DNA of 64,000 nt from a virus: positions 1-64,000 of the IMG/VR virus record IMGVR_UViG_3300032282_005433; one strand, written 5' to 3'. Shown piece by piece: positions 1,552 to 64,000 of the stretch (positions within the stretch are counted from its first letter, which is position 1; the number at the start of each line of letters is the position of its first letter). The notes beneath the pieces are model-generated. The model did no database searches, was not told the DNA's origin, and saw only the letters and a list, made by a program, of their open reading frames with translations. A program made the translations under genes and the position numbers.

Positions 1552-1562
1552 AAACATATATA

Positions 1563-4473: not shown

Positions 4474-5347
4474 ATTTATCACCGCAATATATAATAATTT
4501 GTTTGGTACCGAATTAGGAGGAAGACCAAGTAGAAAAGGACATTACAAATACAGTTTGCTATCTTTATTAAAGATGACAGATGCAGACTTTTTATGTTAT
4601 ACAAATGAACAAGAGTTAAATGAGTTGGAAAATTTTTTCTATACTGAACATTTAATTTCAAAAGAACAATTACAATTTAAAATTTTTAATTTATCCAATA
4701 CAAAATTTAAAGATATTATAAACAAATATAAAGATACTGAAAGTTCAAAACGTTCTGATAGATGTATCGAAATACAATATTCAAAATTTCATTGGTGGTG
4801 GAATGAGGATAAATCTTATGATTATTATTATTGGATTGATGCCGGATTATCTCATTGTGGTTTAATACCAAATGTGTATCTACAAGGTAGTAAACATTCT
4901 GAAAGAAAATATTATGAAAGTGAGTTGTTCAACAATACATTTTTAAAAAATTTGATAAAATTTTCGTCAGATAAATTTTTTATTATGATGAAAGATAATG
5001 TCAGAAATTATTGGTCTGGTACTGTAAACCCAAAATGGTATAATGAGTTTTGTATGGAATATCATGTGATTGGCGGAATGTTTGGAGGCAAAAAAGAAAA
5101 TTGGGATAATTTGGTTAATATATTTGAGAAATACGCCTATGATATAATAACAACAGATTATAATATTCCAATGGAAGAAAATATTATGACTTTGATGTAT
5201 TATAATCATAAGGATTTATTTTCTATAAAAACATTTGATACTTGGTGGTGTAAAGATAATGGGCCAAAAGATATGGATGAAAATTATTATGAAATAAATA
5301 AAAGTTTTTATAAAATTTTAGAAGAACTTAATAGAACATATGAGTAA
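4463..5347 (+). CDS. HtrL/YibB-family putative glycosyltransferase
   Basis: A 294-residue protein of the HtrL/YibB family. The N-terminus VKFITAIYNN leads to a motif-rich centre with YYWIDAGLSH near residues 122-131, the likely nucleotide-sugar and metal site. The phrase VIGGMFGG and an acidic helix MEENIMTLMY follow, as in family members. Bacterial HtrL/YibB genes sit in LPS or O-antigen clusters. The family is presumed to be glycosyltransferases, but its chemistry is poorly established. It overlaps the next gene, which begins with a second copy of the same domain. Confidence 0.75.
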   Translation: MKVKFITAIYNNLFGTELGGRPSRKGHYKYSLLSLLKMTDADFLCYTNEQELNELENFFYTEHLISKEQLQFKIFNLSNTKFKDIINKYKDTESSKRSDRCIEIQYSKFHWWWNEDKSYDYYYWIDAGLSHCGLIPNVYLQGSKHSERKYYESELFNNTFLKNLIKFSSDKFFIMMKDNVRNYWSGTVNPKWYNEFCMEYHVIGGMFGGKKENWDNLVNIFEKYAYDIITTDYNIPMEENIMTLMYYNHKDLFSIKTFDTWWCKDNGPKDMDENYYEINKSFYKILEELNRTYE

Positions 5348-16273: not shown

Positions 16274-19200
16274 ATGGCAACAGCACAAGCAAATCAAAAA
16301 GTATATGTATCACCAGGCGTATACACTTCTGAGACAGATTTATCATTTGTAGCTCAAAGTGTCGGTGTTACTACGTTAGGTTTAGTAGGGGAAACTATAA
16401 AAGGTCCTGCATTCGAACCAATCTTTATCACTAATTACAATGAATTCCAAGCTTACTTTGGGGGCACAGAGCCCGTTAAGTTTGTGAATACTCAAATTCC
16501 TAAATACGAAGCGGCATATATTGCCAAATCTTATTTACAACAATCAAATCAATTATTTGTAACCAGGATTTTAGGATTATCTGGTTATGACGCTGGTCCT
16601 TCGTGGAGTCTTAGTTTGATTGCTAATGTTGACCCAACAACAATCGATATTGATTCTGCAATATCTGTGGATACTTGGACAGCAAATTTTACAGGTAATT
16701 CATCGGCAAATACGTTATCATTCACAACTACTTTACCTAATGAAATTTTGGTTAACTTAAACAAACAATATAGATTATCTGACGGTAGTGTATCGACACT
16801 ATCTGAAGATTTTACTAATATAATTAATTCTATCTACGATAGTCCTCAAACATCGGCAACAACTGTTGTTATGTATGGTGCAATACCTGAAGACGATTAT
16901 ACTGGACTTACAGCAACATATTCCGCAATTACTAATGTTTATGGATGTGATACAAATGATTTGGCAACAAATGATTTAACTGCATCTTCTAATGACCCTT
17001 GGTTTTACGCTAATTTTGACATTACAAGTGGTAATGATTATACAGGATATTCTTTTGATTACGTTGTAACATCTTTAGTTTCTGGCGCATCAAGTACTTT
17101 TACCGGTACAATATCAGGAGCAACATATTCTTTCACAGGAACAGCTTATACTAATTTTAATAATATGGTTGTTTCAACACTTCGTTCTAGAGGTATATCA
17201 TTATATTCTAATAATAGTAGTAGTGTTGACCACGGACCTGTTTATGAAGTTAGTGGATTGACTGATTTACAATTAGTTTGTAGTGGTCAGTATTCAGGTA
17301 TAACTCAAAACCCATATGCAACATTTTTACTTTCAGGTATTACTAAAGATAGTAACACTTTCTCATTTGAAGTTTCAATGTTAGCATCTTCTTCAAAATA
17401 TATTACAAAAGTTCTTGGCATTGATAACTTCGGTAAAAATAGAACTCAAGTTCCTATTTTTGTTGAGGAGTACTATCAAGCAACATTAAATTATGCATAT
17501 AATAAAGGTTATATCCGTGGTTTAAAATGTGATTTAATTGCTCTTCCAGATGCAAGAAGTGAAAACCCTTCATCAATTGCTTGGAATTTGGAAAAATATC
17601 AATCTCCTGAAACACCTTTCTTAGTTTCAGAATTAAGAGGTAATAAGGTTTATAGATTATTTAAATTTATTTCAATATCTGATGGAGCAGCAGCGAATAC
17701 AGAAATTAAAGTTTCAATCGCAAATCTATCATTTAATAATATGACATTTGATGTGTTAGTTAGAAATTTCTATGATACAGATGCAAATCCTGTAGTTATT
17801 GAAAAGTTCACAAATTGTACTATGGACCCAGGTTCAAATAGCTTTGTTGCTAAAAAAATAGGTTCTTCAAATGGTGAATTTGCTTTAATTTCAAAATACA
17901 TTATGTTGGAAATGGCCGATGATTATCCTATTGATGCACTTCCTTGTGGATTTTATGGATATATTCAAAGAGAATATGAGAGTGTTGATAACCCATCTCC
18001 ATATCCTGTATATAAAACAAAATATTATTATCCTGGTGAAGTAGTATTTGACCCTCCATTTGGAACAAGTTCAGGAGGTTCTAATGCTGTTGAATCTGGT
18101 GGTGATATTGTTAGAAGAACTTATCTAGGATTTTCAAGTCAATTTGGAATTGATGAATCTTTCTTAGAATACAAGGGTAAACAAAATCCTGTAGTTGGAT
18201 GGGCAGATGCAACTGATTCATTACCATGGAATTACCTAAGTAAAGGATTCCATATGGACTCAGGAGCTACTGTAGTTTCAATTTCTAATTCAGCTTTATT
18301 GACAAGTGGTGAAACTGCTTTTGAATGTGGAGTTGCCGATTTTAGATTTGACCCAGAAACTCAAGAAAATCCTTATTATTTTATTTACTCAAGAAAATAT
18401 ACAATATGTTTTGCTGGTGGATTTGACGGATGGGATATCTACAGAGAATATAGAACAAACCAAGATAGATTCCAATTAGGTGCTTCCGGTTATTTAGCAG
18501 GAGCAGCACCTTCAACAAGATACCCAACAGCAACAGGAGACGGAATGTTCAAGAGAATTGTTGTTCAAAATAATACTCAAGATTTCGCAAACTCTGACTA
18601 CTACGCTTACTTACTTGGTATTTTAACTTTCGCAAATCCTGAAGCAACAAACATTAATGTTTTTGCAACTGCAAGTATTGATTATGTTAATAACTCTAAT
18701 TTAGTAGAAGAGGCAATCAATATGATACAGTATCAAAGAGCGGATTCTGTGTATATTACAACAACACCAGATTACAACATGTATACTCCTGATGGAACAA
18801 GTCAATATGACGTGATTTATCCACAAGAAGCTGTTGATAACCTCGATAACACAGGAATTGATTCAAACTATACAGCAACTTACTATCCTTGGATACTTGT
18901 AAGAGATACTGTAAACAATACACAAATATATCTTCCACCAACAGGTGAAGTTTGTAGAAACTTAGCATTAACAGATAACATTGCATTCCCTTGGTTCGCA
19001 TCAGCGGGTTACACAAGAGGTCTTGTAAATTCAATTAAGGCTAGACGTAAGTTAACTCAAGAAGATAGAGATACACTTTATCAAGGTAGAATTAACCCAA
19101 TCGCTACTTTCTCCGATGTAGGAACTGTAATTTGGGGTAACAAAACTTTACAAGTAACTGAATCAGCATTAAATAGGTTGAATGTAAGAAGATTATTATT

Positions 19201-19483
19201 ACAAGCTCGTAAATTAATATCTGCTGTAGCTGTAAGATTATTGTTTGAACAAAACGACCAAATTGTTAGACAACAATTCTTAGATAGTGTTAATCCTATT
19301 TTGGATTCAATCAGAAGAGATAGAGGTCTTTACGATTTCCGTGTAACAGTTTCTTCTTCTCCAGAAGATTTGGATAGAAATACACTAACAGGTAAAATAT
19401 ATCTTAAACCTACGAAGGCGTTAGAATTCATTGATATTGAGTTCTTCATCACACCAACAGGTGCTTCGTTTGAAAATATCTAA
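16274..19483 (+). CDS. gp18: Contractile tail sheath protein (gp18)
   Basis: A 1,069-residue sheath protein, much longer than T4 gp18 (659). The N-terminus VYVSPGVYTSETD and GLVGETIKGPAFEPIFITNYNEF are sheath signatures. KYITKVLGIDNFG and VPIFVEEYY are typical of T4-type sheaths, and the C-terminal domain about residues 890-1,069 (SVNPILDSIRRDRGLYDF; GKIYLKPTKALEFIDIEFFI) carries the intersubunit arms. Residues about 110-370 are an inserted Ser/Thr-rich beta region that probably decorates the outside. The sheath contracts to drive the tube through the host envelope. A strong terminator follows. Confidence 0.95.
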   Translation: MATAQANQKVYVSPGVYTSETDLSFVAQSVGVTTLGLVGETIKGPAFEPIFITNYNEFQAYFGGTEPVKFVNTQIPKYEAAYIAKSYLQQSNQLFVTRILGLSGYDAGPSWSLSLIANVDPTTIDIDSAISVDTWTANFTGNSSANTLSFTTTLPNEILVNLNKQYRLSDGSVSTLSEDFTNIINSIYDSPQTSATTVVMYGAIPEDDYTGLTATYSAITNVYGCDTNDLATNDLTASSNDPWFYANFDITSGNDYTGYSFDYVVTSLVSGASSTFTGTISGATYSFTGTAYTNFNNMVVSTLRSRGISLYSNNSSSVDHGPVYEVSGLTDLQLVCSGQYSGITQNPYATFLLSGITKDSNTFSFEVSMLASSSKYITKVLGIDNFGKNRTQVPIFVEEYYQATLNYAYNKGYIRGLKCDLIALPDARSENPSSIAWNLEKYQSPETPFLVSELRGNKVYRLFKFISISDGAAANTEIKVSIANLSFNNMTFDVLVRNFYDTDANPVVIEKFTNCTMDPGSNSFVAKKIGSSNGEFALISKYIMLEMADDYPIDALPCGFYGYIQREYESVDNPSPYPVYKTKYYYPGEVVFDPPFGTSSGGSNAVESGGDIVRRTYLGFSSQFGIDESFLEYKGKQNPVVGWADATDSLPWNYLSKGFHMDSGATVVSISNSALLTSGETAFECGVADFRFDPETQENPYYFIYSRKYTICFAGGFDGWDIYREYRTNQDRFQLGASGYLAGAAPSTRYPTATGDGMFKRIVVQNNTQDFANSDYYAYLLGILTFANPEATNINVFATASIDYVNNSNLVEEAINMIQYQRADSVYITTTPDYNMYTPDGTSQYDVIYPQEAVDNLDNTGIDSNYTATYYPWILVRDTVNNTQIYLPPTGEVCRNLALTDNIAFPWFASAGYTRGLVNSIKARRKLTQEDRDTLYQGRINPIATFSDVGTVIWGNKTLQVTESALNRLNVRRLLLQARKLISAVAVRLLFEQNDQIVRQQFLDSVNPILDSIRRDRGLYDFRVTVSSSPEDLDRNTLTGKIYLKPTKALEFIDIEFFITPTGASFENI

Positions 19484-42139: not shown

Positions 42140-44002
42140 ATGGACATTTCAAACAGAATTCTTAGTGATATTACCGTATACATGAAATACGCAAAATATT
42201 CACCTGAATTAAAAAGAAGAGAAACGTGGCAAGAATTGGTCACAAGAAACATGGAAATGCATATCAAACATTATCCTGAATTAGAAAAAGAAATTCGTGA
42301 AAATTACATGTATGTTTACAAGAAGCAAGTATTACCCTCAATGAGGTCTATGCAATTTGCTGGTAAACCTATTGAAATTTCACCTAACAGAATTTATAAT
42401 TGTGCATTTGCACCAATAGATGATTGGAGAGTTTTTTCTGAAATAATGTTTTTATTATTAGGAGGAACAGGTGTCGGGTATTCTGTTCAAAAACATCATG
42501 TTGAAGTTTTACCTGAAATTCAAAAACCAAACAAAGAAAGAAGTAGAAGATGGTTAGTTGCCGATTCAATTGAAGGTTGGGCAGATGCTGTAAAAACTTT
42601 GGTTAAATCATATTTTTTTGGAGGTTCTCACATTGAATTTGATTTCAGTGATATTAGAGCTAAAGGAGCTAGACTTGTAACGTCAGGTGGTAAAGCTCCT
42701 GGACCTCAACCACTTAAAGAATGTCTTATAAAGTTAGAAGGTATCCTTGACTCTAAGGAAAATGGTGAGAAATTGAGACCAATTGAAGTTCACGATATGG
42801 TTTGTCATATTGCAGATGCGGTATTGGCTGGAGGTATTAGAAGAGCGGCACTTATCTCATTGTTCTCAGCAACTGATGATGAAATGATTGGTTGTAAGTC
42901 AGGTGCTTGGTGGGAACAAAACGCCCAAAGAGGTAGAGCAAATAATTCGGCTGTGTTGCTCCGACACAAAATAACAAAAGATTACTTCATGGACCTTTGG
43001 AAGAGAATTGAAGCAAGCGGAGCTGGTGAACCCGGTATTTATTTAACAAATGATAAAGATTGGGGAACCAATCCTTGTTGTGAAATTGCTCTTAGACCAT
43101 TCCAATTCTGTAATCTTACAGAGGTTAATGTGTCTAATGTTGTATCTCAAGAAGATTATAATGATAGAGTTAGAGCGGCTACGTTTATCGGAACATTACA
43201 AGCAGGATATACTAACTTCCATTACTTAAGACCAATTTGGCAAAGAACAACTGAAAAAGATGCATTGATTGGAATTTCAATGACAGGTATTGGTTCTGGT
43301 GCAGTTTTAAAGTTAGATATGAAATCTGCGGCAAAAACAGTTAAGGAAGAAAATAAAAGAGTTGCGGAACTATTAAATATTAATCCTGCAGCAAGAACAA
43401 CAACTGTTAAACCAGCAGGAACAACATCATTAACTTTAGGAACATCAAGTGGAATTCATGCATGGCATAATGAATATTACATCAGAAGAGTTAGAGTTGG
43501 TAAGAATGAGGCAATTTATTCTCATTTAAAAAATAACCACCCTGAATTAGTTGAAGATGAATATTTTAGACCACACGATACTGCTGTTATTGGTATTCCA
43601 CAAAAATCACCTGAAGGTTCTATCTTAAGAAATGAATCTCCAATTCAACTTCTTGAAAGAGTTAAGAAAGTTCATATGGAATGGATTAAACCTGGACATA
43701 GAACGGGAAATAATTCACACAATGTTTCGGCAACAGTTTCAATAAGAGAACATGAATGGCCAGCAGTTGGTGAGTGGATGTGGAATGAAAGAGAGTCTTA
43801 TAATGGACTTTCAGTATTACCCTACTCTAATCACAGTTATAAACAAGCTCCGTTTGAGGATTGTACAAAAGAAAAATATGAAGAATTAATGAACGCTTTG
43901 AAAGATGTTGATTTATCAAAAATTGTAGAAATGGACGATGATACGGATTTAAGTGGAGAAATTGCTTGTGGGGCTAATGGTTGTGAAGTTACATTAGTTT
44001 AA
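42140..44002 (+). CDS. nrdJ: Class II (B12-dependent) ribonucleotide reductase
   Basis: A 620-residue adenosylcobalamin-dependent ribonucleoside-triphosphate reductase. Diagnostic parts are VLPSMRSMQFAGKP, YNCAFAPIDD with the first redox Cys, the GGTGVGYSVQ loop, NPCCEI near residues 310-315 with the active thiyl Cys, and PAGTTSLTLGTSSGIH. The C-terminal redox pair is C610 and C615 in ACGANGCEV. It makes dNTPs for replication. Unlike T4 class I NrdAB, a single oxygen-independent subunit suffices, but it needs a host cobalamin supply. A terminator follows its stop. No intron or intein. Confidence 0.92.
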   Translation: MDISNRILSDITVYMKYAKYSPELKRRETWQELVTRNMEMHIKHYPELEKEIRENYMYVYKKQVLPSMRSMQFAGKPIEISPNRIYNCAFAPIDDWRVFSEIMFLLLGGTGVGYSVQKHHVEVLPEIQKPNKERSRRWLVADSIEGWADAVKTLVKSYFFGGSHIEFDFSDIRAKGARLVTSGGKAPGPQPLKECLIKLEGILDSKENGEKLRPIEVHDMVCHIADAVLAGGIRRAALISLFSATDDEMIGCKSGAWWEQNAQRGRANNSAVLLRHKITKDYFMDLWKRIEASGAGEPGIYLTNDKDWGTNPCCEIALRPFQFCNLTEVNVSNVVSQEDYNDRVRAATFIGTLQAGYTNFHYLRPIWQRTTEKDALIGISMTGIGSGAVLKLDMKSAAKTVKEENKRVAELLNINPAARTTTVKPAGTTSLTLGTSSGIHAWHNEYYIRRVRVGKNEAIYSHLKNNHPELVEDEYFRPHDTAVIGIPQKSPEGSILRNESPIQLLERVKKVHMEWIKPGHRTGNNSHNVSATVSIREHEWPAVGEWMWNERESYNGLSVLPYSNHSYKQAPFEDCTKEKYEELMNALKDVDLSKIVEMDDDTDLSGEIACGANGCEVTLV

Positions 44003-45302: not shown

Positions 45303-47141
45303 ATGGCAAATCGTAAAATATCGTATACAACCAGAGATTTTCAGGCAATTAGAACTGAACTTTTAAATTATGCTAAAACATATTATCCTGATTTAATTCA
45401 AGATTTTAATGATGCTTCTGTATTTTCTATATTTTTGGATATGAACTCCGCTGTTGCAGATAATCTACATTATCATATTGATAGAAGTATTCAAGAAACT
45501 GTTTTACAATATGCTCAACAAAGGTCATCAATATATAACATAGCAAGAACTTATGGATTAAAACTCCCTGGACAAAGACCATCAGTTTCATTAGTTGATT
45601 TTTCAATAACAGTTCCCGCTTATGGAGATAAAGAAGATGAGAGATATCTTGGAACATTAATAAGAGGTTCACAAATTATTGGAGCTGGTATTGTGTTTGA
45701 AAACATTTATGATATTGATTTTGCTTCTCCATATAATGCGCAAGGTTTTCCAAACAGATTAAAAATTCCTAATTTTAATGCAAATAATGTTTTAATAAAT
45801 TATACAATAACTAAAAGAGAAATTGTTGTTAATGGTATTACAAAAGTGTTTAAAAGAGTTATTGGGGCAAATGATGTTAAACCATTTTTTGAATTATTTT
45901 TACCTGAAAAAAATGTTTTAGGTATAACAAGTGTTTTATTAAAAAATGGAACTGAATATACAAACGTACCAACAACTGCAGAATTTTTAGGATTAAGTAA
46001 TAGATGGTATGAAGTTGACGCTTTGGCGGAAGACAGGGTCTTTATTGAAGACCCAACAAAAGTATCAGACCAACCAGGGATTAAAGTGGGAAAATATATA
46101 CAAACTCAAAATAGATTTATGACAGAGTATACACCTGAAGGATTCAAAAAAATGACATTTGGAGGAGGAACAAATACTGCTCAGGATGCTTTAAATGAAT
46201 TTACAACATTAGGTACGACTTTAGAGTTACAAAAATATTCAAATAACTTTTCTTTAGGTTCTACTTTAACACCAAATTCAACTTTGTTTATTCAATATAG
46301 AGTTGGTGGTGGATTGGCAACAAACTTAGGTACAAATGTTATAAATCAAGTTGGAACTGTTTCTTTTTTTGTTAACGGACCTTCAGAGGTAACAAACTCA
46401 TCTGTAGTTAATTCTCTTAGATGTGTTAACGTAACTGCAGCAGTTGGAGGTGCGGGAGTACCATCTTTGGAAGAAATAAGAAATTATGTTTCGTTTAATT
46501 TTTCGGCACAAAAAAGAGCTGTTACAGTTCAAGATTATGAATCATTAATAAGAAATATGCCAGCACAATTTGGGGCACCGGCAAAAGTTTCAATTACTGA
46601 AAATGATAATAAAATTTTGATTCAAATATTATCATATGATACGTCAGGTAAATTGACAAATATTGTGTCAAACACTTTAAAACAAAATATTGCAAATTAT
46701 TTGTCTAACTACAGAATGATGAATGATTATATATCAATCTTTACTGCTGAAGTAATTGATTTGAGTGTTGATGTTGCAATTGTTTTAGATTCTGCACAAA
46801 ACTCAGGACAAGTAATATCTGAAGTTATTGATAGAGTATCCACATATTTCAACCCACAAACAAGACAATTAGGTCAAAATGTTTATTTGTCTGAATTAAG
46901 AAGTTTAATACAAAATCAAAATGGTATTTTAGCTGTTGCTAGTTTAAATATTTACAATGAAGTCGGTGGACAATATTCTTCGGCTGAAACATCTATGGAG
47001 TATTCTAATCCTGAAACAAAATTAATTGGGCCAGTTGATGATACAATATTTGCACAACCATCTCAGGTTTATCAAATAAGATATCCTAATAAAGATATTA
47101 GAGTATCTGTTAAAAATTTCCAATCGATTACTTTTTCCTAA
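45303..47141 (+). CDS. gp6: Baseplate wedge protein gp6 (baseplate J-like)
   Basis: A 612-residue gp6/baseplate J-like protein. The N-terminus ISYTTRDFQAIRTELLNYAK and FNDASVFSIFLDMNSAVADN are typical of gp6, as is SIYNIARTYGLKLPGQRPS. The C-terminal part with AVTVQDYESLIRNMPAQFG and KNVYLSEL-like ending (GQNVYLSELRSLIQ) is the baseplate J core. gp6 dimers join wedges into a ring. T4 gp6 is 660 residues. It is co-transcribed with gp25. Confidence 0.92.
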   Translation: MANRKISYTTRDFQAIRTELLNYAKTYYPDLIQDFNDASVFSIFLDMNSAVADNLHYHIDRSIQETVLQYAQQRSSIYNIARTYGLKLPGQRPSVSLVDFSITVPAYGDKEDERYLGTLIRGSQIIGAGIVFENIYDIDFASPYNAQGFPNRLKIPNFNANNVLINYTITKREIVVNGITKVFKRVIGANDVKPFFELFLPEKNVLGITSVLLKNGTEYTNVPTTAEFLGLSNRWYEVDALAEDRVFIEDPTKVSDQPGIKVGKYIQTQNRFMTEYTPEGFKKMTFGGGTNTAQDALNEFTTLGTTLELQKYSNNFSLGSTLTPNSTLFIQYRVGGGLATNLGTNVINQVGTVSFFVNGPSEVTNSSVVNSLRCVNVTAAVGGAGVPSLEEIRNYVSFNFSAQKRAVTVQDYESLIRNMPAQFGAPAKVSITENDNKILIQILSYDTSGKLTNIVSNTLKQNIANYLSNYRMMNDYISIFTAEVIDLSVDVAIVLDSAQNSGQVISEVIDRVSTYFNPQTRQLGQNVYLSELRSLIQNQNGILAVASLNIYNEVGGQYSSAETSMEYSNPETKLIGPVDDTIFAQPSQVYQIRYPNKDIRVSVKNFQSITFS

Positions 47142-53669: not shown

Positions 53670-54480
53670 TTTTGTAATAAAAAAAGATGCTTTTGTTAAT
53701 AAACAAGTTAACATACCAATAAATTTAAGTTGGGATTATCTTGGAATAGAACAAAGTATTAATGAATATGAAACTGAGGTTATTAAAGATGTTGTTGGTA
53801 TTGGAAGAGATTTCGAGGTCGATAGATTTGCGAATGCCCCCTCAACAGGAATTACAGAATCAACAGAATTAAATTATGAATTTTATTTTTATTCTGGTGG
53901 TTCATTAGACGACAGAGCAAATTGGAGAAATGATTATCGAAGTGAAGGATTTACAACTCAAGAAGTTTTTTATTATACCAATAATTTTTCTAATTCTTTT
54001 TTTAAGTTAGACTTATATGATACTGTTGATGATAAAAAACAAACAAATTATATAACTCTTATAATACCAACACAACAAGGATTGAAGATGGATACAATGA
54101 TGCAAAGAACTCCAGTTTCAATAAACAAACCAAAATTTGTATTAAATTATGTTGGAGATAAAGAAGGGTTTTTTATTTATTGGTTAAAGAAAAGAACTTT
54201 TTTGGATATTAAAACTTTTTACATGACAGCTAAGTTTTATAATGCAAAAGACGGAACATTTATAAAAATGATGAACACGCCACAATCTGAAATTTCTGGC
54301 AACAAATATTCTTTTGATAGTAGTTCTTATTTTTATTATCAAGTTGATTTGGATTATGATAATCGTGAATATCAAGTTTTAAATATAAATCCCTATACTG
54401 CGGATTATCACCAATTTGGTGAAAGGGCTGGAACACCAGAACCCATAAAATGGTATGAATATGTTAACCCCCCACGATAA
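53656..54480 (+). CDS. Hypothetical baseplate-region structural protein
   Basis: A 274-residue protein read from the ATG at 53,656, which overlaps the upstream stop by 14 bases; the frame opens 33 bases earlier, but MDAINFVIKKDAF is a more natural start. It begins with an aromatic beta region and contains IPINLSWDYLGIEQSINEYE, NYITLIIPTQQGLKM and FIYWLKKRTFLDIKTFYMTA. It ends in PIKWYEYVNPPR. It joins the next gene in a TAATG junction. A minor virion role is inferred from position only. Confidence 0.65.
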   Translation: MDAINFVIKKDAFVNKQVNIPINLSWDYLGIEQSINEYETEVIKDVVGIGRDFEVDRFANAPSTGITESTELNYEFYFYSGGSLDDRANWRNDYRSEGFTTQEVFYYTNNFSNSFFKLDLYDTVDDKKQTNYITLIIPTQQGLKMDTMMQRTPVSINKPKFVLNYVGDKEGFFIYWLKKRTFLDIKTFYMTAKFYNAKDGTFIKMMNTPQSEISGNKYSFDSSSYFYYQVDLDYDNREYQVLNINPYTADYHQFGERAGTPEPIKWYEYVNPPR

Positions 54481-55559
54481 TGGATTATTATAATATTATA
54501 GTATCGCCAGAAAATATTGCAGGAGATTTATTTCTTGTTGATTATAATGGAACTGAAGTAGGTGTTTATTCTGCCATGACGCAAGTATTAACGGGTGGAC
54601 CAAATGGTAGTTCATTATTAACAGGATTAACTGTGCCGATATTGATAACTCAAACGGCAATTGATGCTGGGTATTATAGTCCTTTTGATGGTGCGGTATT
54701 ACAAAAAGATGTTGTCGCCAATTTTATATTTTCTGCAACAACGGGAGACCCATACACTTATTATGTATATAACACGTCAAGTGATTTTCAAAAGTTTCTT
54801 GACTTGTCGGCATATTTTATTGATTGGGGAGATGGTACTCCTAAAGAAGCTATTACAACGTATGCCCCTAATTCAATCAGTCATTCATATTCTCAATCGT
54901 CTACACAATATACTATAACATTAGAACAGACAAATCCTTGGGGAGTGACTAGGGTGTCAAAAACGGTACCAACACCATTTGAGAATGTTGTCATATATAA
55001 TCCTAATGGTGAAGCCCTTTTTGTTCCTGCGGGTGGTAATTGGTCTGGTACTCCGGTATCATACGATTATATTTTTTCTGGGGATGCTGTTAATGAGGTC
55101 GCACCTCAAACATCAATAAATTATGTTTCGGTTCCATTTACTATATCAGGAATAACAAAATCAAGAATAACTGAATTAGCTCTTTATGGAACACCAAAAT
55201 ATCAAGTCGGAACTCCTGTTATTGCAAACAATCAAATATGGGGAACTATTACTGACATGTCACCAATTTTTACTGCGTATACAATTACTGGTATTGATTA
55301 CTATGATTATGTTGACGGTATAACAATATTTTTCCAACAATCTTCAGGATTAACTGATAATAATTTAACTGCGGTACCAATCACAAAGGAAGAGGTTTTA
55401 TTGAAAGTAATGGACCAGCCACAGATACAGACAAATGTTTATATAGAAAGAGGTAAGAATTCTGCTTATGAAAGAATAATGAGATTGGGTGAAGTTGATA
55501 ATTTGGGAGATATGGTAAACTACGGGTATGGTTTTTTTAATGTTGAAAAAAGGAACTAA
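54480..55559 (+). CDS. Tail/baseplate protein with PKD-like domain
   Basis: A 359-residue protein. Residues about 110-170 (YFIDWGDGTPKEAITTY, then ISHSYSQSSTQYTITLEQTN) form a PKD-type immunoglobulin fold, recognised by the WGDGT and HxY motifs. PKD domains mediate surface binding. The C-terminal part is helical-beta and ends in a charged segment (ERGKNSAYERIMRLGEVDNL). It is coupled to the upstream gene. A peripheral baseplate or fibre-attachment function is likely but not shown. Confidence 0.7.
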   Translation: MDYYNIIVSPENIAGDLFLVDYNGTEVGVYSAMTQVLTGGPNGSSLLTGLTVPILITQTAIDAGYYSPFDGAVLQKDVVANFIFSATTGDPYTYYVYNTSSDFQKFLDLSAYFIDWGDGTPKEAITTYAPNSISHSYSQSSTQYTITLEQTNPWGVTRVSKTVPTPFENVVIYNPNGEALFVPAGGNWSGTPVSYDYIFSGDAVNEVAPQTSINYVSVPFTISGITKSRITELALYGTPKYQVGTPVIANNQIWGTITDMSPIFTAYTITGIDYYDYVDGITIFFQQSSGLTDNNLTAVPITKEEVLLKVMDQPQIQTNVYIERGKNSAYERIMRLGEVDNLGDMVNYGYGFFNVEKRN

Positions 55560-55608: not shown

Positions 55609-56517
55609 ATGGCAATTGGAGCATACGGAACGATAAGACCATCAGATGTTAGTCCTGCTGATGTTGAGATTATAATGAATTATACTCCAACAAGGGACGT
55701 TACTGATGCATTTGTATTAACTAAATTAGATTCTCAAACAATTTTAAAACCGTATTTCAATAATACTGAAACAGGTGGAAATGCTGGTGTGGAAGTTTTG
55801 GGAGGATTGTATAATTTAACATTACCTGCAGAACAATTTAACGCTCTTGGAATATACACACTATATTTAAGACCAGCACAAATAAGGACGATAATTACGG
55901 ATTGTGGAGTTTTGAGTGCATTACCAAATGTAAAAGGAATTGTTATTGATTTAACTAATGTTCCTGTTGAATATCAAAATAAATTTGTTCCTCAGGGATT
56001 GGTTGGATTTAGAATTGAGTATTTGAATACTGACGGGTCAAAGATACCAAATTTCTTTAGAGTTGTTACATCTTGTTTCTATTGTGAGCCAGTGGTTACC
56101 AATGAAGTTAACACAACACAGAAAGCCATAAGATATAGATATATTGATGGAAATTCTAATTTATTGTTTTTAACATTATCACCATCTTCATCACCAACAA
56201 ACAAACCTAACGCAACTCCATATATTGGGCAACCTAGCCAAAGTATAATAATATCAAACACATATTTTAATCCAATTACTTTGGAAATTGAAATGGTTGA
56301 AAATGATATTTCAACATTGGCAATCGCTCTTTACGGTAACCAAACTAAATCTATTGATGACGGAATATATACAATTTATGACGCTCAAGATAACATTTAC
56401 AAACAATACAACTTGTATGAAATCAGAGACCAATTTAATGCATTATTATATGAGGTTAGACAAAGCAGAGGCAATAATATAGATTTTAGTAAGAACTTTA
56501 CAAACATAACAAGTTAA
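55609..56517 (+). CDS. Hypothetical baseplate/tail structural protein
   Basis: A 302-residue protein. The N-terminus AIGAYGTIRPSDVSPADVEI and a sequence rich in Asn, Thr and Ile suggest a beta-structured tail protein. Two cysteines are adjacent to an aromatic (SCFYCEP). A long helix near the C-terminus (NLYEIRDQFNALLYEVRQSR) could mediate oligomerisation. It joins the next gene in a TAATG junction (shared bases 56,517). It may belong to a Bacteroidetes phage-specific family, but I cannot assign a function. Confidence 0.65.
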   Translation: MAIGAYGTIRPSDVSPADVEIIMNYTPTRDVTDAFVLTKLDSQTILKPYFNNTETGGNAGVEVLGGLYNLTLPAEQFNALGIYTLYLRPAQIRTIITDCGVLSALPNVKGIVIDLTNVPVEYQNKFVPQGLVGFRIEYLNTDGSKIPNFFRVVTSCFYCEPVVTNEVNTTQKAIRYRYIDGNSNLLFLTLSPSSSPTNKPNATPYIGQPSQSIIISNTYFNPITLEIEMVENDISTLAIALYGNQTKSIDDGIYTIYDAQDNIYKQYNLYEIRDQFNALLYEVRQSRGNNIDFSKNFTNITS

Positions 56518-59495
56518 TGGCAACATCAAGAAGTAAATATTTTTATCCGCCGAGACCAGGAAGTGGTGCCGGAACATTTTCCGACAACATAGTTGGTTTA
56601 CAAACTGTTGAGGGTGGTGGACTTACGCAGGGTAATTTTGAATTTACTACAGGAGTAACTGAAAAAGTTAATAGACATTTTAATGTTGGGGCTTTTTCTG
56701 AGCCAATGACTTTAGATGGAATGAACATTGAAGACTTGGCGGAAAGTCGAAGAATAATGGCAACACAGTTTAGGGTTTATCCAAACTATGATGTATCACA
56801 AGTTCTTAACTTTTCAATGTATGGTTCGTTATCTAAAAGATTTAGCGTATCAGTAACAAAAATAATAAATTTTTTTCCAGCATCATTAGATGTTGTTTAT
56901 AGTAGTCTTGATTATACAACAGGAAACACCGCAACAAACATAGTATACAATAGTAATTTAGATGAAACATATTTTGAAATAAATGTTAGCAGGATTCTTA
57001 ATCCGTTTGACATTGATTATTCAGTTAGTGCAACAACTAATTTATCAATCAGAGAAATTACAACATCACCTTATAGAAATTTATATAACACTTATTTGGA
57101 TTATTGTATTAGTATTGACGATAACATATTTAAAGTATTATCGTTTCAACCATCAGAAACATTAAGTAGTGGATATATTGCTTTTTATGTTTCAGGTGCT
57201 CCGTTTGGAACATCTGCAACAACATCCAGTGATGATTATCAAGTAAGACCAAATGATTTTGTAGTTGATAGAGTATTTTCTGAAGATTTTGATGAGGTTG
57301 AAAAATTTTTGGTAAACAGGTTAGTAAGACCTGAATATACTGCGGTTTTTCAAATTCCACAACAAAACGAATATGGTCAATTCTATACAGAATATGCGCA
57401 AGTTACATGGCCTAAAGACGGTACGTGGAATTTAGATATTAGGTCATTTTTATTTGACGACTATTTAACACAATTACAAGATATTGCAGAAAATCTCGAT
57501 TCATTTAAAACAAATTTAATTTCAAGATTTTTAATAACTGGCGCTTTAAAAGATTTTGACACATTAGGACAAAAAGCTGAAAAGATATTTCAAATATATG
57601 GTAGAAGTTTTGACCAAATAAAACAATTTATTGATGGGTTAGCTTACATGAATTCAGTAAACTATAATCCGTCTAATGATATTCCATCACAACTGCTTGC
57701 CAATTTATCTCAAACATTAGGATGGAGTTCTAATTTTTCTCCAATAACAAATGACGACTTTTTAAGTTCTGTTTTTGGAAATACCTCAACACCAACATAT
57801 CCGGGATATGCAAGAGCTTTAACACCAACAGAATTAAATTATCAATATTATAGAAACTTAATATTGAATTCGGCATATTTGTTTAAATCTAAAGGAACAA
57901 GAAGGTCAATAGAGTTTCTTATGAGACTTATTGGGGCTCCCGATTCTTTAATTGAATATAATGAACACATTTATTTGGCCGACCAAAAAATAAATTTAGA
58001 CCAATTTTATACACAATATGCACAAATATCGGGAGGGACTTACGTAGACGAATCCCCAAGTTATTTACAAAATGACACATTTAAAGTTAAAGGTCAATTA
58101 TTTACGGCATTTACGTCTACATCAGTTTATCAAAACGTAACAATAAGACTTCCTGATTATCCAATGGATGCCGAAGGATATCCAAAGGCTCCATTAAATA
58201 CAGAAACGTATTTTTTCCAAATAGGTGCAGGTTGGTATGAAACAACTCCATCACACAGAAGTCCAGATGAAGTCCAATTAACCGGACTTGTATATACAGG
58301 ACAAAATTATAGTATACAAACACAATTAACACCTTTCACATATGGTCAAACTTATCTAAATAGGTATAGATATTTTCCATACATGACAGAAGGGTTTAAA
58401 TTAAGAAAAATTGTTGATAACAATAAATCTTGGTTAGCAACAGATGATAAAATAAGAGTATCAACACAAGGTGATTATAACGCATATTATTTTGTGGATA
58501 ATGAAAAGTTAGTATTAAATGTTAAAAATATTGATTTGTTTTTAAATCCGGCTCAAGGTCTTGTATATGACGTTTGGGATGAATCGAGAAGATATGATTA
58601 TCCAATACCTGAAAGTGGACTTACGGTTAACTACCCAGTTCCTGGAGGAGTTGATTCTACATATATTAAACCAAACCCTAAGAAAAAAACATTTTTTGAA
58701 TTTACCCAAACTTTTTGGGAGAATATGATTAATGTTAGAAATCGTCAATATATTACTGATGGTAAAACTGGAGGATATCCAACCCTACAATCTATTTTTT
58801 GGAAATACATTCAATCCGAAGAAACAGTTGGATTACCTAATAACAAATACACTTATCAAAAATTAATTGATTATGTGAATGGTATTGGTCCATATTGGAT
58901 GAAGTTGGTAGAACAAATGATACCAGCAACAACAATATGGAATGGAGGAGTAAAGTTTGAAAATTCAATTTTTCATAGACAAAAATTTGTTTATAGAAGA
59001 CAAAGAGGATGTCAGTTTATTCCGGTTCCTGTCGACCCTTGTTATATAATATCAAACATTTTTGACTATGCATGTTCTACTGAATATGTTGATTTTAATA
59101 TATATCCTTGGTTAAATGGGGATGTTACTGTTTCAAATTTCAGTAGTATCTTATACAATAGAGTTAATAATTTATTAACATCTAGTGGGTTAACATTAAA
59201 CCAATGTAATCAAAATTCTGTGGCAACTGATTGGTATGTTGATTTGAGAATTGATAATGAAATTATAATTCAACAACAATTTTATACAGGATATGGGATT
59301 AACGATGTCCCAACAAACATACAATGGAGAACGGCTTTGATTAATTATTTACCAAATTTATATGAGTATGGTTTTACTTATTTCCTTAATGGTAATATGT
59401 TAACTATAACTAGCCTAACATGTGACCCAAGGTACATTAATGAAACACTTTGTTTAAATGTTGGAATAAATATAGATATAAATTGTAACAAATAA
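56517..59495 (+). CDS. Large baseplate wedge protein, gpI/gp7-like core
   Basis: A 992-residue protein. Residues about 330-470 (KDFDTLGQKAEKIFQIYGRS; YMNSVNYNPSNDIPSQLLAN; TELNYQYYRNLILNSAYLFK followed by SKGTRRSIEFLMRLIGAP) follow the helical plan of P2 gpI and related wedge proteins, including part of T4 gp7. The flanking regions are beta-rich and probably extend outward. The C-terminus is Cys-containing (CQFIPVPVDPCY; NQCNQNS). The upstream junction is TAATG. This and the 1,580-residue protein may share the roles of T4 gp7, gp8 and gp10. Confidence 0.65.
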   Translation: MATSRSKYFYPPRPGSGAGTFSDNIVGLQTVEGGGLTQGNFEFTTGVTEKVNRHFNVGAFSEPMTLDGMNIEDLAESRRIMATQFRVYPNYDVSQVLNFSMYGSLSKRFSVSVTKIINFFPASLDVVYSSLDYTTGNTATNIVYNSNLDETYFEINVSRILNPFDIDYSVSATTNLSIREITTSPYRNLYNTYLDYCISIDDNIFKVLSFQPSETLSSGYIAFYVSGAPFGTSATTSSDDYQVRPNDFVVDRVFSEDFDEVEKFLVNRLVRPEYTAVFQIPQQNEYGQFYTEYAQVTWPKDGTWNLDIRSFLFDDYLTQLQDIAENLDSFKTNLISRFLITGALKDFDTLGQKAEKIFQIYGRSFDQIKQFIDGLAYMNSVNYNPSNDIPSQLLANLSQTLGWSSNFSPITNDDFLSSVFGNTSTPTYPGYARALTPTELNYQYYRNLILNSAYLFKSKGTRRSIEFLMRLIGAPDSLIEYNEHIYLADQKINLDQFYTQYAQISGGTYVDESPSYLQNDTFKVKGQLFTAFTSTSVYQNVTIRLPDYPMDAEGYPKAPLNTETYFFQIGAGWYETTPSHRSPDEVQLTGLVYTGQNYSIQTQLTPFTYGQTYLNRYRYFPYMTEGFKLRKIVDNNKSWLATDDKIRVSTQGDYNAYYFVDNEKLVLNVKNIDLFLNPAQGLVYDVWDESRRYDYPIPESGLTVNYPVPGGVDSTYIKPNPKKKTFFEFTQTFWENMINVRNRQYITDGKTGGYPTLQSIFWKYIQSEETVGLPNNKYTYQKLIDYVNGIGPYWMKLVEQMIPATTIWNGGVKFENSIFHRQKFVYRRQRGCQFIPVPVDPCYIISNIFDYACSTEYVDFNIYPWLNGDVTVSNFSSILYNRVNNLLTSSGLTLNQCNQNSVATDWYVDLRIDNEIIIQQQFYTGYGINDVPTNIQWRTALINYLPNLYEYGFTYFLNGNMLTITSLTCDPRYINETLCLNVGINIDINCNK

Positions 59496-59497
59496 AA

Positions 59498-61633
59498 ATG
59501 GCGGCATTTAATTATCAAATATCAACAACAGGAGATTGTTCAAATTCTTTAACAGGAATAATATCAATATTACCGTATGGAGGAACTCCACCATATACGG
59601 TAGATTGGCAAAGTCCTAATTTAGGTGTAGATACAACTACTTTAGTACCTTCAGTTAGAACAGGATTAAGTGGAGGAACATATGCACTTCGTTTAAATGA
59701 TAGTACTATACCGGTTAACCAACAATTTTATGTGAATATACCGGTGTCTGATGGAGTTTGCTGTAACATACTTGGTGTGAATAGTACTTCTTGTAGTTTA
59801 GATAATGGCTCAGTAACAGGAACATCAACTTCAAATTATTCTTCTACTAATTTTTATTTATTTGATTATACTGATACATATATCACATCAGGAGTAACAA
59901 ATACCTCAACAATTATTTTTGGAAATTTAAGTGCTTCAACATATTATTTAATTGCTGAAGATTTGGGAGGATGTACTGGACAAAGCCAAACATTTATAAT
60001 TGAAGAATCGGAACCTTTTGATTTTGGATTATATGTTGTACCAAACTCAAGTTGTGGAGGAACACCAATAGGTAAAATATATGTTACAGGTCAAACAGGT
60101 GTTTCACCATATTCGTATTATTGGAGTAATGGAGAAACAGGTAGTACAATAACCGGATTAACTTCTGGAAATTATTCAGTTCAAGTAATTGATGGTTTGG
60201 GATGTTCTAAAACTGAAAGTGCTCTTATAGAAGATGTACCTAGTGTGGGTTTTGGTCTTTTTACGGTAACACCACCTACTTGTTTTGCAAGCGACGGTGT
60301 TATTAATCTAACAATAACAGGAGGAACTGCTCCATATTACTATTCAGCCTCAACAGGATATTTTGAAATTTCATATAGTAAAACGTTTACTTTAGGTGGA
60401 TTGTCTTCGGGACAATATGATTTTTTAGTAACAGATTCAGGTCTTTGTACTTTCCAAGTTGGAACAACATTAAATACACCACAAGGAATTACTTCAGTTA
60501 ATGTTACTACTCAAAATTCTACGTGTTCAAGTACTGATGGTTCTATAACGGCAGTAGTTATTGGAGGTACAACACCATACACATACACATTAATTAATCC
60601 TGAGGGAAACACATTAGTGATTAGTACTTCTCAAGCTACACAAGTATTTTCAAATTTAGAGTCTGGAACATATACAATTTCAGTTCAAGATGCTAACGGT
60701 TGTGTTTTTATACAGGAAACCACAATAATAGCTGAAAATAAATTTACAATTTCAACATCAACCACACCAACAACTTGTGCACAAAATAATGGTATTATTG
60801 ATGTAACTAGAACAACAGGAGGTACTGCACCTTTTGATTTTTCTTTAGATGGTGTAATTAATATTATTGATACCAATCTTTATACGGTATCATTTACAAA
60901 TGTCGCATCTGGTCAGCACACAATAACAGTAACAGACGCTGTTGGATGTGCACAGACATCTCAAGTATATGTGAGCGGAAGTTCACTTGTTGACTTTACA
61001 TTATATAGTACTTCTTGTGGTAATGGTTCTGATGGTACAATTACCGCTCTTATTACTTCTGGAGTGCCACCATTTAGTTTTGATTGGTCGGATAATGTTG
61101 ATTCAAATCCACAACAAATACAAGTATCAAATCTTACTGCAGGGACATACAGTTTGACTGTTATGGATAGTAATTCATGTTCATTATATAGAACAGTTTC
61201 AATTGATTGTTCTGCTTTATATACATCTTATCAAACATATGCAATGGGATGTGAAGTATTTCAAGTGGAATCACCAAGTAAATACGGATTACCACAAATG
61301 TTAAATGAAGGATTTTTTGATTTAACATCAGGTAATACAAACTGTGATTTAATTTCTGCAATTTTTATTGCAAAAGTTTCAGTACAACCATTGGGAACTA
61401 TTGTGACTCAACCTTTTTATACGGCAACTACACTATCATCAGCACCTAGCGATAACTTATGGTATGATGAAATACAAAATCTATTACTTGGAATTCCAGG
61501 GATTGGTTCTGTAACTATAGATGCTCTTAATAATCAAATAACAATAACAACAAGTACAATAAATCCTATTCTTAATAATCAAGAAATAATTATAGAATTA
61601 ATTATTGTATATGATATTATGTGTTTAACATGA
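59498..61633 (+). CDS. Tail adhesin with SprB-like repeats
   Basis: A 711-residue protein with about seven repeats of roughly 70 residues between residues 10 and 565. Each unit follows C-x-DG-x-I, then GG-x-x-PY-x-Y/F, then L-x-x-G-x-Y, then V-x-D-x-x-GC; examples are GGTAPYYYSASTG, LTSGNYSVQVIDGLGC and LESGTYTISVQDANGC. This is the SprB repeat pattern of Bacteroidetes gliding adhesins. The C-terminal 140 residues form a different domain. It follows the gpI-like wedge gene by 2 bases. I infer a receptor-binding or host-mimic role; no chaperone or signal peptide is seen. Confidence 0.8.
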   Translation: MAAFNYQISTTGDCSNSLTGIISILPYGGTPPYTVDWQSPNLGVDTTTLVPSVRTGLSGGTYALRLNDSTIPVNQQFYVNIPVSDGVCCNILGVNSTSCSLDNGSVTGTSTSNYSSTNFYLFDYTDTYITSGVTNTSTIIFGNLSASTYYLIAEDLGGCTGQSQTFIIEESEPFDFGLYVVPNSSCGGTPIGKIYVTGQTGVSPYSYYWSNGETGSTITGLTSGNYSVQVIDGLGCSKTESALIEDVPSVGFGLFTVTPPTCFASDGVINLTITGGTAPYYYSASTGYFEISYSKTFTLGGLSSGQYDFLVTDSGLCTFQVGTTLNTPQGITSVNVTTQNSTCSSTDGSITAVVIGGTTPYTYTLINPEGNTLVISTSQATQVFSNLESGTYTISVQDANGCVFIQETTIIAENKFTISTSTTPTTCAQNNGIIDVTRTTGGTAPFDFSLDGVINIIDTNLYTVSFTNVASGQHTITVTDAVGCAQTSQVYVSGSSLVDFTLYSTSCGNGSDGTITALITSGVPPFSFDWSDNVDSNPQQIQVSNLTAGTYSLTVMDSNSCSLYRTVSIDCSALYTSYQTYAMGCEVFQVESPSKYGLPQMLNEGFFDLTSGNTNCDLISAIFIAKVSVQPLGTIVTQPFYTATTLSSAPSDNLWYDEIQNLLLGIPGIGSVTIDALNNQITITTSTINPILNNQEIIIELIIVYDIMCLT

Positions 61634-62022
61634 GACAGATAAGAATAACAGAAATATCGGGTGGTAAATATCCTGTATCGGTTTATATTGCGGATATTTA
61701 TGGTAACAATCAAACATTGATTGGGGCCGTACCTTCTGGGCCAGTACCACCAACAATAACATATAATACTACCATTCCAACTATTTTTGAAACAGCATCA
61801 GAAGTGATGCTTTTATTAATTGATGGGGATGGATGTCAAGTTTTTCGAATTTTAGAGTGTACATCATTTTGTTCTTTTGCAATCACAATTGAATTGGCTA
61901 CGTGTACAATGGAAATTATTATTGGACCAAATCCGACACCAACTCCGACACCAACGCCAACACTAACTTCAACACCAATGCCAACACCGGACAATACTCC
62001 AACGCCAACGCCAACTATTTAA
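61630..62022 (+). CDS. Small Cys-rich virion protein with Thr-Pro tail
   Basis: A 130-residue protein read from an ATGA junction at 61,630 with the SprB-like gene. Residues 1-95 form a beta domain with five or more cysteines near its end (CQVFRILECTSFC; LATCTM). The last 30 residues are a Thr-Pro repeat (NPTPTPTPTPTLTSTP and more). The fold and the Thr-Pro linker recur in the next gene, suggesting related fibre or tip proteins, here ending in the linker. A fusion partner may have been lost, or the linker may anchor the protein. Confidence 0.7.
   Translation: MRQIRITEISGGKYPVSVYIADIYGNNQTLIGAVPSGPVPPTITYNTTIPTIFETASEVMLLLIDGDGCQVFRILECTSFCSFAITIELATCTMEIIIGPNPTPTPTPTPTLTSTPMPTPDNTPTPTPTI
61930..62020 (+). 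repeat. CCAACA/CCGACA microsatellite coding Thr-Pro
   Basis: Imperfect tandem repeats of CCAACxCCx units encode the Thr-Pro tail of the preceding gene. Variation is mostly at third positions. The same type of repeat occurs at 62,379-62,551, so recombination between the two is possible. Confidence 0.75.
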
Positions 62023-62156: not shown

Positions 62157-63173
62157 ATGACAACATACATTATAACAGTCGTAAATAATACACCAGGTTG
62201 TGCTAATACAGTAGAACAAGAAGTTACTGTAGATTGTTGTTCAACATACATTGTCAGACTTGACCCAGCGTCAAATGCAATCGGTCCATTTAGTGTTTAT
62301 ATTGATGATGTCCTTTTTGGTTCTGGATATTCAAGAACTGAAATGATTGACGGTGTTGTTATTACTTTACAATGTGTAACACCAAGTCCAACACCAACAC
62401 CAACAGTAACACCTGAAACTCCAACACCAACACCTACTGAAACTATTACTCCAACACCAACTGTTACAATAGGATTAACTCCAACACCAACCGAAACTGT
62501 TCCAGCAACTCCAACTCCAACACCTACGATAACTAATACACCAACTCCTAGCGGTTCTATGTATAGTGCTTATATCTTCCCTGAACCACAAGACAGTACT
62601 TCTCAAAATGATTTAGGTCAATATATGTATGACGGTGGGTCAAATAATTATTATGGATATACAAATAGTGGTGGACCTGCTGGGGGACCAAGTTATAGTT
62701 CTGATTTAGCAATATATGTTCAATATCCTGGATGGTCAGGTTCAAGTGGTAGTTTTGTTACAAATGTTGCAACTCTGGCAGGTAGTATTAAACAATCTCC
62801 TGGCGTTGGAACTGACACTTATGGATGTGTTCAAAATCAGTATGCATTCGGTAGCATTCCAATAACAACTTCAAATGTAAATGTTAATATACAATATGTT
62901 TATACTGTTTGGGTTCCACTTGATGGAGTCGGAGGAACATTAAATAATATGACACTTAATGTTGGTAGTGGTGGACCTTGTATATCTACAATAGTTGATG
63001 GTGGAATACCTGATACAACAAATGCGGGAATTAATGTTTCAGTTCCTTCAGGATGTGCAATACCTTCAGGAAACTATAGAGTTCTATGGATACTTGAATT
63101 GTATTTACTTCCCGCATTGGCAAATATACCATTTAATTCTACTTTATGGATAAAAGGTAATACAAAATCATAA
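62157..63173 (+). CDS. Virion protein with Thr-Pro linker and C-terminal beta domain
   Basis: A 338-residue protein in three parts: an N-terminal Cys-containing beta domain (TPGCANTVEQEVTVDCCSTY; FSVYIDDVLFGSGYSRTEMI) of about 75 residues, a Thr-Pro-rich linker (about residues 75-132), and a Ser/Gly/Tyr-rich C-terminal domain of about 200 residues ending in IPFNSTLWIKGNTKS. The linker with changing Thr-Pro spacing is like that of the preceding small protein. The design suggests a fibre or tip protein with a long extended stalk. No known domain was identified. Confidence 0.7.
   Translation: MTTYIITVVNNTPGCANTVEQEVTVDCCSTYIVRLDPASNAIGPFSVYIDDVLFGSGYSRTEMIDGVVITLQCVTPSPTPTPTVTPETPTPTPTETITPTPTVTIGLTPTPTETVPATPTPTPTITNTPTPSGSMYSAYIFPEPQDSTSQNDLGQYMYDGGSNNYYGYTNSGGPAGGPSYSSDLAIYVQYPGWSGSSGSFVTNVATLAGSIKQSPGVGTDTYGCVQNQYAFGSIPITTSNVNVNIQYVYTVWVPLDGVGGTLNNMTLNVGSGGPCISTIVDGGIPDTTNAGINVSVPSGCAIPSGNYRVLWILELYLLPALANIPFNSTLWIKGNTKS
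62379..62551 (+). repeat. Thr-Pro-coding microsatellite
   Basis: CCAACACC-type repeats interrupted by GTTACA, GAAACT and similar units encode the Thr-Pro linker. It is the longer of two such tracts within 600 bases. Confidence 0.75.
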
Positions 63174-63197: not shown

Positions 63198-64000
63198 ATG
63201 TCATTTCCATATAAAAATCCATTAACATCCTATCAATTAGGGGCTTCAAATAGTGTATCAAGAACTAGTACTTTTGGTACTAATTTTTCTATATTAAGTA
63301 CTGGTGGATATATGGAGGTTTACTATCTAAGTGACCTTTTGTTGACATTGACGGCAACAACATACCCGTCAATAATACAGTTATCCGCAAATACAATACC
63401 AATCGCATTTACTAAAGGAACTGGCTCGGCCTTTTCTCCAGATGTTATTAATTTAAATTCGGATAATATTTCAAGTGGAAGAAGAAGATTAGGAATGCAA
63501 GTTTATGTCCAGGAAACCGATACGGTATATCAATATGTTATAACAAATTATCAAGAATTATGGAATAATTTATCTGGTCTTACAGGTAATTCTGGAGTAA
63601 CAATGACAGACTATTCTACAGTAGTTAATAGTCGTTCACAAGAAGGGGAGGATTTTATTAGTGCTTGGACAGCTTCAACAATTGAAGGATATAATGGTGT
63701 AGAAAGAAATAACGCTAGATGGAGAATAGTTCAAGGGACTGATATTCAAATTACAGGAGGAACGTATTTTTCGGGAACTCAAATTTTAGATTTATATAAT
63801 AGTACAGGAGGAACTATTGTAATTACTGGATTTACAGGTACGGTTACAGGAGGAACTTATGATAGTGGAACTTCAACTTTAACATTAAATAATAGTGATG
63901 GTACTCAGGTTTCTGTTACAGGTATTACATCAGGAGGAAGTCCTCTTACAGTATACGACTCTACATCTGGAGTAACAGCAACAAGTGTTACAGGTATAAC
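63198..64000 (+). CDS. Tail fibre-like protein, partial (runs off right edge)
   Basis: The frame starts at the ATG at 63,198 and is open to the end of the window (267 codons so far). The first 160 residues form an N-terminal domain (MSFPYKNPLTSYQLGAS; QELWNNLSGLTGNSGVTMTD). From about residue 188 the sequence becomes a beta-repeat: TGGTYFSGTQILDLYNSTGG, then TGGTYDSGTSTLTLNNSDG, with ITG/VTG turns, as in extended phage fibres. It is probably the first part of a long tail fibre whose tip domain lies outside the window. No promoter motif precedes it closely. Confidence 0.7.
   Translation, partial: MSFPYKNPLTSYQLGASNSVSRTSTFGTNFSILSTGGYMEVYYLSDLLLTLTATTYPSIIQLSANTIPIAFTKGTGSAFSPDVINLNSDNISSGRRRLGMQVYVQETDTVYQYVITNYQELWNNLSGLTGNSGVTMTDYSTVVNSRSQEGEDFISAWTASTIEGYNGVERNNARWRIVQGTDIQITGGTYFSGTQILDLYNSTGGTIVITGFTGTVTGGTYDSGTSTLTLNNSDGTQVSVTGITSGGSPLTVYDSTSGVTATSVTGI

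Follow-up and report, generated by a model that had tools for sequence, protein, structure and literature searches.

A protein of 711 residues, here named p711 and built from seven SprB-type immunoglobulin (Ig)-like domains, is encoded in the tail region of the virus in IMG/VR record IMGVR_UViG_3300032282_005433. The best overall explanation is that p711 is a conserved stalk-like structural part of a tail appendage whose tips and fibres bind the receptor, and to this we give a probability of about 0.6. The window analysed covers positions 1 to 64,000 of this 64.5-kb record, and p711 belongs to a widespread freshwater family of large phages. The sequence family, predicted fold, conservation, gene order and selection regime of p711 were established, and a stalk near the baseplate is the most likely role for such a protein. 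The original prediction, made from the DNA letters, had described a tail protein that borrows or mimics a host adhesin repeat for receptor binding.

SprB-type domains and the C-terminal domain

The reading frame of p711 is intact. Its product matches the Pfam SprB family (PF13573) with an E-value of 1.1e-27 and 95.8 bits, the curated cut-off of the family being 28 bits. Five SprB matches were detected in the record, all inside this one open reading frame, and four of them pass the cut-off singly (Table 1). No SprB match was found in 14 well-known control genomes searched in the same way, while all of the 37 p711 relatives scanned hit PF13573. The proposed membership in the SprB family was thus upheld by the profile search. 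Individual repeats of p711 score 22-39 bits and the best bacterial SprB repeats reach 57, and the p711 repeats are therefore regarded as divergent members.

The cysteine pattern noticed in the repeats is also real. Both the starting cysteine (C..s.DG.I) and the closing GC of the SprB repeat occur in p711, and at least two cysteines are present in 97% of 2098 repeats drawn from bacteria and from LR756502, a 642-kb uncultured phage record. The cysteines of the p711 domains and of its C-terminal part are kept in 47-48 of 48 relatives, with the exception of C89 and C585, and 14 domain cysteines are maintained across 46 complete copies.

An AlphaFold2 model of p711, based on an alignment of 37 sequences (mean pLDDT 82.5), consists of seven tandem beta-sandwich domains of 75-86 residues each, followed by an alpha/beta C-terminal domain. 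The earlier count, about seven repeats of roughly 70 residues each, was right in substance; the last 139 residues, which form this different domain, had not been mentioned. As the pTM of the model is 0.38, it does not establish the relative orientation of the domains and hence the straightness of a rod. Ig-like folds were also returned by comparison of the model with the PDB, where the top four matches are pieces of the Aureispira grappling-hook adhesin GhpA (best 1.5e-20). A single-sequence search of solved structures with p711 gave no hit, and the same search with a bacterial-type SprB stretch found no SprB structure either.

A profile search of solved structures gave only weak Ig-like matches, to the neck-whisker protein 9occ (E=0.037) and the phage decoration protein 5lxk (E=0.058). 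Together with a Hoc-like match among PHROGs (6e-6), these would fit a neck, whisker or head decoration protein instead of a tail stalk. However, these matches are probably due to a common Ig-like consensus, and in relatives the gene lies between baseplate and fibre genes, so that a place on the neck or head is improbable.

Residues 635-709 of p711 align with residues 917-990 of the 992-aa protein encoded directly upstream (30% identity over 76 aa, blastp E 0.056). Profile comparison of this shared domain is weak (hhalign probability 21%), and the order H-E-E-H-E-E-E is predicted for both C-termini. The 992-aa protein, which presumably resembles P2 gpI or T4 gp7-type proteins, has no hit in Pfam. 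Its AlphaFold model (mean pLDDT 36) is poor outside the C-terminal domain, the best-modelled part, and was for this reason left out of the fold search. Further, weak similarity to the C-terminus of the 992-aa protein is seen at the C-terminus of a 359-aa protein (54480-55559), with E-values of 0.007-0.07 among relatives. The domain common to p711 and the 992-aa protein is tentatively interpreted as a docking domain and, judged by sequence, may be shared by all three neighbouring proteins.

Table 1. Features of p711 and its neighbourhood in the window.
Feature	Position	Strand	Basis or remark
p711, SprB-type repeat tail protein, whole ORF	59498..61633	+	711 aa; profile match, model
Ig-like domain 1 (res. 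1-86)	59498..59755	+	degenerate SprB repeat: GGTPPY kept, closing GC absent; model strands, alignment
Ig-like domain 2 (res. 87-170)	59756..60007	+	degenerate repeat without GG.PY; model, alignment
Ig-like domain 3 (res. 171-245)	60008..60232	+	SprB match 60035-60139, 22 bits, singly below cut-off
Ig-like domain 4 (res. 246-325)	60233..60472	+	SprB match 60260-60358, 39 bits
Ig-like domain 5 (res. 326-410)	60473..60727	+	SprB match 60503-60601, 35 bits
Ig-like domain 6 (res. 411-492)	60728..60973	+	SprB match 60752-60853, 29 bits
Ig-like domain 7 (res. 493-572)	60974..61213	+	SprB match 61013-61099, 31 bits
p711 alpha/beta C-terminal domain (res. 573-711), probable docking domain	61214..61630	+	model, weak similarity to 992-aa protein
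992-aa conserved baseplate-region protein	56517..59495	+	immediately precedes p711 in every complete relative
About 130-aa protein, Pro/Thr-repeat tail	61630..62022	+	ATG overlaps p711 stop (ATGA at 61630)
338-aa protein: Pro/Thr linker, C-terminal domain variable among relatives (candidate tip)	62157..63173	+	
Giant fibre gene, start portion, open at window end	63198..63998	+	2030 aa in relative L011

Genomic setting and conservation of p711

The record encodes a tail sheath (16274-19483), a Baseplate_J-type protein (45303-47141) and a tape-measure-like protein, as well as a DnaB-type helicase, a family B polymerase and a class II ribonucleotide reductase. Collinearity with Microcystis phage Mel-JY01 extends over the sheath, tube, helicase, reductase and baseplate genes. 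The reductase (42140-44002) is 67% identical to that of Mel-JY01 and about 60% identical to proteins of small Vibrio and Oceanospirillum phages annotated as 'recombinase', which is probably a misannotation. A block at 289-7025 contains glycosyltransferase-like genes, the first of which shares 45-47% identity with genes of jumbo phages of Xanthomonas and Stenotrophomonas.

The gene order around p711 runs from the 992-aa baseplate-block protein through p711, a small overlapping protein and a Pro/Thr-linked protein to a giant fibre gene. Collagen repeats and a Peptidase_S74 chaperone are typical of phage fibres, and both occur in a 1706-aa fibre encoded two ORFs downstream of the p711 homologue in relative L029. 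The position between baseplate-type and fibre genes agrees with the tail context first suggested and makes a tail-appendage role likely; judged by gene position alone, p711 would be a component of the virion.

In IMG/VR, 520 stretches are related to the window by p711 and 309 by the 992-aa protein. The same baseplate-region gene precedes p711 in 46 of 46 complete copies. These distinct copies are 709-717 aa long, save six that are extended at the C-terminus by a Pro/Thr linker, most of them with a further domain. Two such extensions (L015:12979-16242 and L024:12964-16365) bear repeated YNP..NK.Y-like motifs past the linker and look like beta-propellers; a Pfam search with them gave no match. 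Repeats are neither gained nor lost among the copies and their positions correspond one-to-one; repeats sharing a position show 63% identity between phages, and those at different positions within one protein show 26%. Recent duplication of repeats within the phage was rejected because of this low likeness within p711. Prophage or host-genome copies of the p711 family were not found among 84,980 species genomes searched with conserved protein patterns.

Across 80 contigs the median identity to the window is 88% for a 302-aa gene, 80% for the 992-aa gene and 61% for p711, and the downstream tip gene is alignable only in part. The downstream Pro/Thr-linked proteins also vary in length (160-855 aa). 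In one pair (window versus relative L007, Nei-Gojobori), the dN/dS of p711 is 0.146, indicating purifying selection, and that of its upstream neighbours is 0.05-0.06; every p711 domain is under purifying selection (0.08-0.21). By this measure p711 changes about 2.5-fold faster than the neighbouring genes upstream, as expected of a more exposed protein. Taken together, identity and dN/dS suggest that p711 is a conserved part with somewhat greater exposure than the baseplate, and no fast-changing receptor binder. Since p711 is collinear and under purifying selection and the downstream tips and fibres are variable, the latter are better candidates for receptor binding.

Relation to Bacteroidota adhesins and the probable host

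The original link to Bacteroidota is well reflected in genome searches. The rod region of p711 (571 aa) has matches in 70 of 247 Bacteroidota genomes, almost always within long ORFs (best match 3.8e-43, 38% identity), and in only one of 194 control genomes, a MAG titled 'uncultured cyanobacterium' from whose group the controls were taken; the leading GhpA matches among solved structures point the same way. In that MAG (L221, CASBQM010000121.1), SprB repeats are confined to one 3.2-kb contig, apparently a misbinned contig of Bacteroidota. Compared with size-matched sets of bacterial repeats and with other repeats from phages, domains 1, 3, 4, 5 and 7 of p711 score higher with the bacterial sets, and domains 2 and 6 do not. 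Bacterial repeats that lie nearer to the consensus could yield the same scores, and acquisition of a ready-made array is therefore not proven.

Bacteroidota as the source of the repeats is the simplest account, and both the direction and the date of the transfer are inferred. The modules of p711 share ancestry with the surface adhesins of the type IX secretion system (T9SS) of Bacteroidota and were probably taken long ago from such a host lineage. Recent borrowing of a host repeat by one phage, as originally supposed, does not hold, as p711 is an old part of fixed length in a whole phage family.

The repeat family or fold of p711 is that of the T9SS adhesins SprB of Flavobacterium johnsoniae and GhpA of Aureispira. 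SprB is a giant surface adhesin of 6497 aa (PMC9870892). In contrast to SprB and GhpA, p711 has 711 aa, a fixed number of repeats and neither signal sequence nor sorting domain. A phage-encoded protein closer to the bacterial adhesins is found in LR756502 (L087:9310-14322); it has 1670 aa, with 13 SprB repeats and a PKD domain. Unlike p711, it bears a hydrophobic signal-like N-terminus and a CHU_C type IX sorting domain, and it therefore looks like a secreted host-type adhesin. LR745206 holds a relative of its C-terminal part. By analogy, p711 with its repeats of the same family could be a cargo gene for a secreted adhesin displayed by the host. However, p711 lacks an N-terminal signal sequence (MAAFNYQISTTGDC), and its N-terminus (MAAFNYQISTTGDCSNS), inspected by eye for an export signal, shows no hydrophobic stretch. 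A search for type IX domains (CHU_C or Por_Secre_tail) gave only sub-threshold internal hits in p711, none over the cut-off at the C-terminus or elsewhere, and the same search detects CHU_C in the LR756502 protein. As the gene also lies within a structural gene block, a cargo role is extremely improbable.

Shine-Dalgarno motifs precede 5% of genes in the window and 4% in shuffles. Their use is likewise low in the Bacteroidota phages FCL-2 and phiST, although such absence is not exclusive to Bacteroidota phages, and reaches 24-29% of genes in S-PM2 and Mel-JY01. The Bacteroidota promoter TTG-N20-TAnnTTTG is not enriched in the window; 14 related, non-independent contigs contain 110 copies versus 58 in reversed controls, mainly in the four largest. 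The SprB repeats, the lack of Shine-Dalgarno use and the promoters in related contigs together favour a Bacteroidota host, and the phage encoding p711 probably infects Bacteroidota.

Assignment of the host from the nearest named phage, Mel-JY01, was set aside, its label itself being doubtful. This phage (PP395634; L169, L170, L171, L088), labelled a Microcystis elabens phage, has 28 copies of TTG-N20-TAnnTTTG versus 8 in the reversed control, many of them 30-55 nt before ORFs, the copies at 68716, 69085 and 69447 being identical. With promoters of Bacteroidota type, its real host may be a Bacteroidota present in the culture.

Stalk role and comparison with known phage proteins

In the proposed mechanism, the seven SprB-type domains would form a rod of fixed length in large contractile-tailed phages, and the C-terminal alpha/beta domain would dock this rod, either to the baseplate or to the fibre assembly. 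Binding of the receptor would fall to the variable Pro/Thr-linked tips and the giant fibres of the neighbouring genes, and in some relatives such a tip is fused to the end of p711. Receptor binding or adhesin interlocking by p711 itself is less likely than this stalk role.

To our knowledge, no ligand of the SprB repeat alone has been described. The domains of p711 might nevertheless adhere to the host surface, by weak glycan binding or through the ligand of the host's adhesin, and would thus hold the phage on the cell until its fibres find the receptor. Arrays of this kind belong to adhesins in SprB (PMC9870892) and GhpA, mycobacteriophage Douge has Ig-like domains that bind to its host cells (PMC13033339), tail BACON arrays of gut phages have been read as possible host binding (PMC6949934), and p711 outpaces the baseplate genes in evolution. 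However, purifying selection acts on each domain, the repeat number is fixed and the variable tips lie elsewhere; surface adhesion by the domains is accordingly rather unlikely. As Ig-like domains of another phage bind host glycans (PMC13033339), some binding role is conceivable, and p711 is possibly a fixed stalk of SprB-type modules with weak surface binding.

Mimicry of SprB, by which the phage would interlock with or ride the moving adhesins of its host through putative repeat-repeat binding, draws on the family relation of p711 and on Flavobacterium columnare, where phage resistance accompanies loss of gliding and a receptor in the gliding machinery has been suggested (PMC7345892). Family relation, however, tells only of common fold and ancestry, the p711 repeats have diverged from the bacterial ones (mostly 30-38% identity), and gliding by the host is putative, which leaves mimicry very improbable. 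Scarcely more probable is a rod that engages host adhesin filaments or a surface ligand, the phage exploiting the moving gliding machinery towards an entry site.

The best viral fold match of p711 (3e-63) is A0A6J5LD72 of an uncultured Caudovirales phage (UniProt/BFVD), a 714-aa protein with 34% identity over the full length and clearly of the same family. It is already named 'SprB repeat' in UniProt, an automatic name only, and no description or function of it was found in the literature searched. Similarly, no open-access paper on SprB repeats in phage tails was found. In tailed phages, Ig-like domains usually occur singly or in small numbers, as I-set, FN3 or BIG2 types, and sit on proteins of the head or tail tube. 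Such proteins and p711 both carry Ig-like beta-sandwich modules on a virion-type protein, which p711 would be by its gene position, but p711 differs in its seven SprB-type domains with paired cysteines (Fraser et al., 2006, as cited in PMC13033339, on Ig-like domains of tailed phages). In crAss-like phages, tail-associated proteins contain tandem BACON arrays; successive duplications expanded one BACON lineage, and two others arose through transfer of individual domains (PMC6949934). As in p711, domains of Bacteroidota host type stand in tandem in a tail-region protein, but BACON is another domain family, and p711 has a fixed number of repeats in one-to-one positions. SprB-type Ig-like arrays as a fixed part of the tail appear to extend a known theme, the nearest described cases being the BACON arrays and the glycan-binding Ig-like domains of phages.

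A repeat module of Bacteroidota adhesins would have been adopted as a fixed structural part by a widespread family of freshwater phages, in parallel with the BACON arrays of crAss-like phages. By its sequence, the p711 gene may mark phages whose hosts are probably SprB-bearing bacteria, and the variable tip genes adjoining it are where receptor specificity should be sought.
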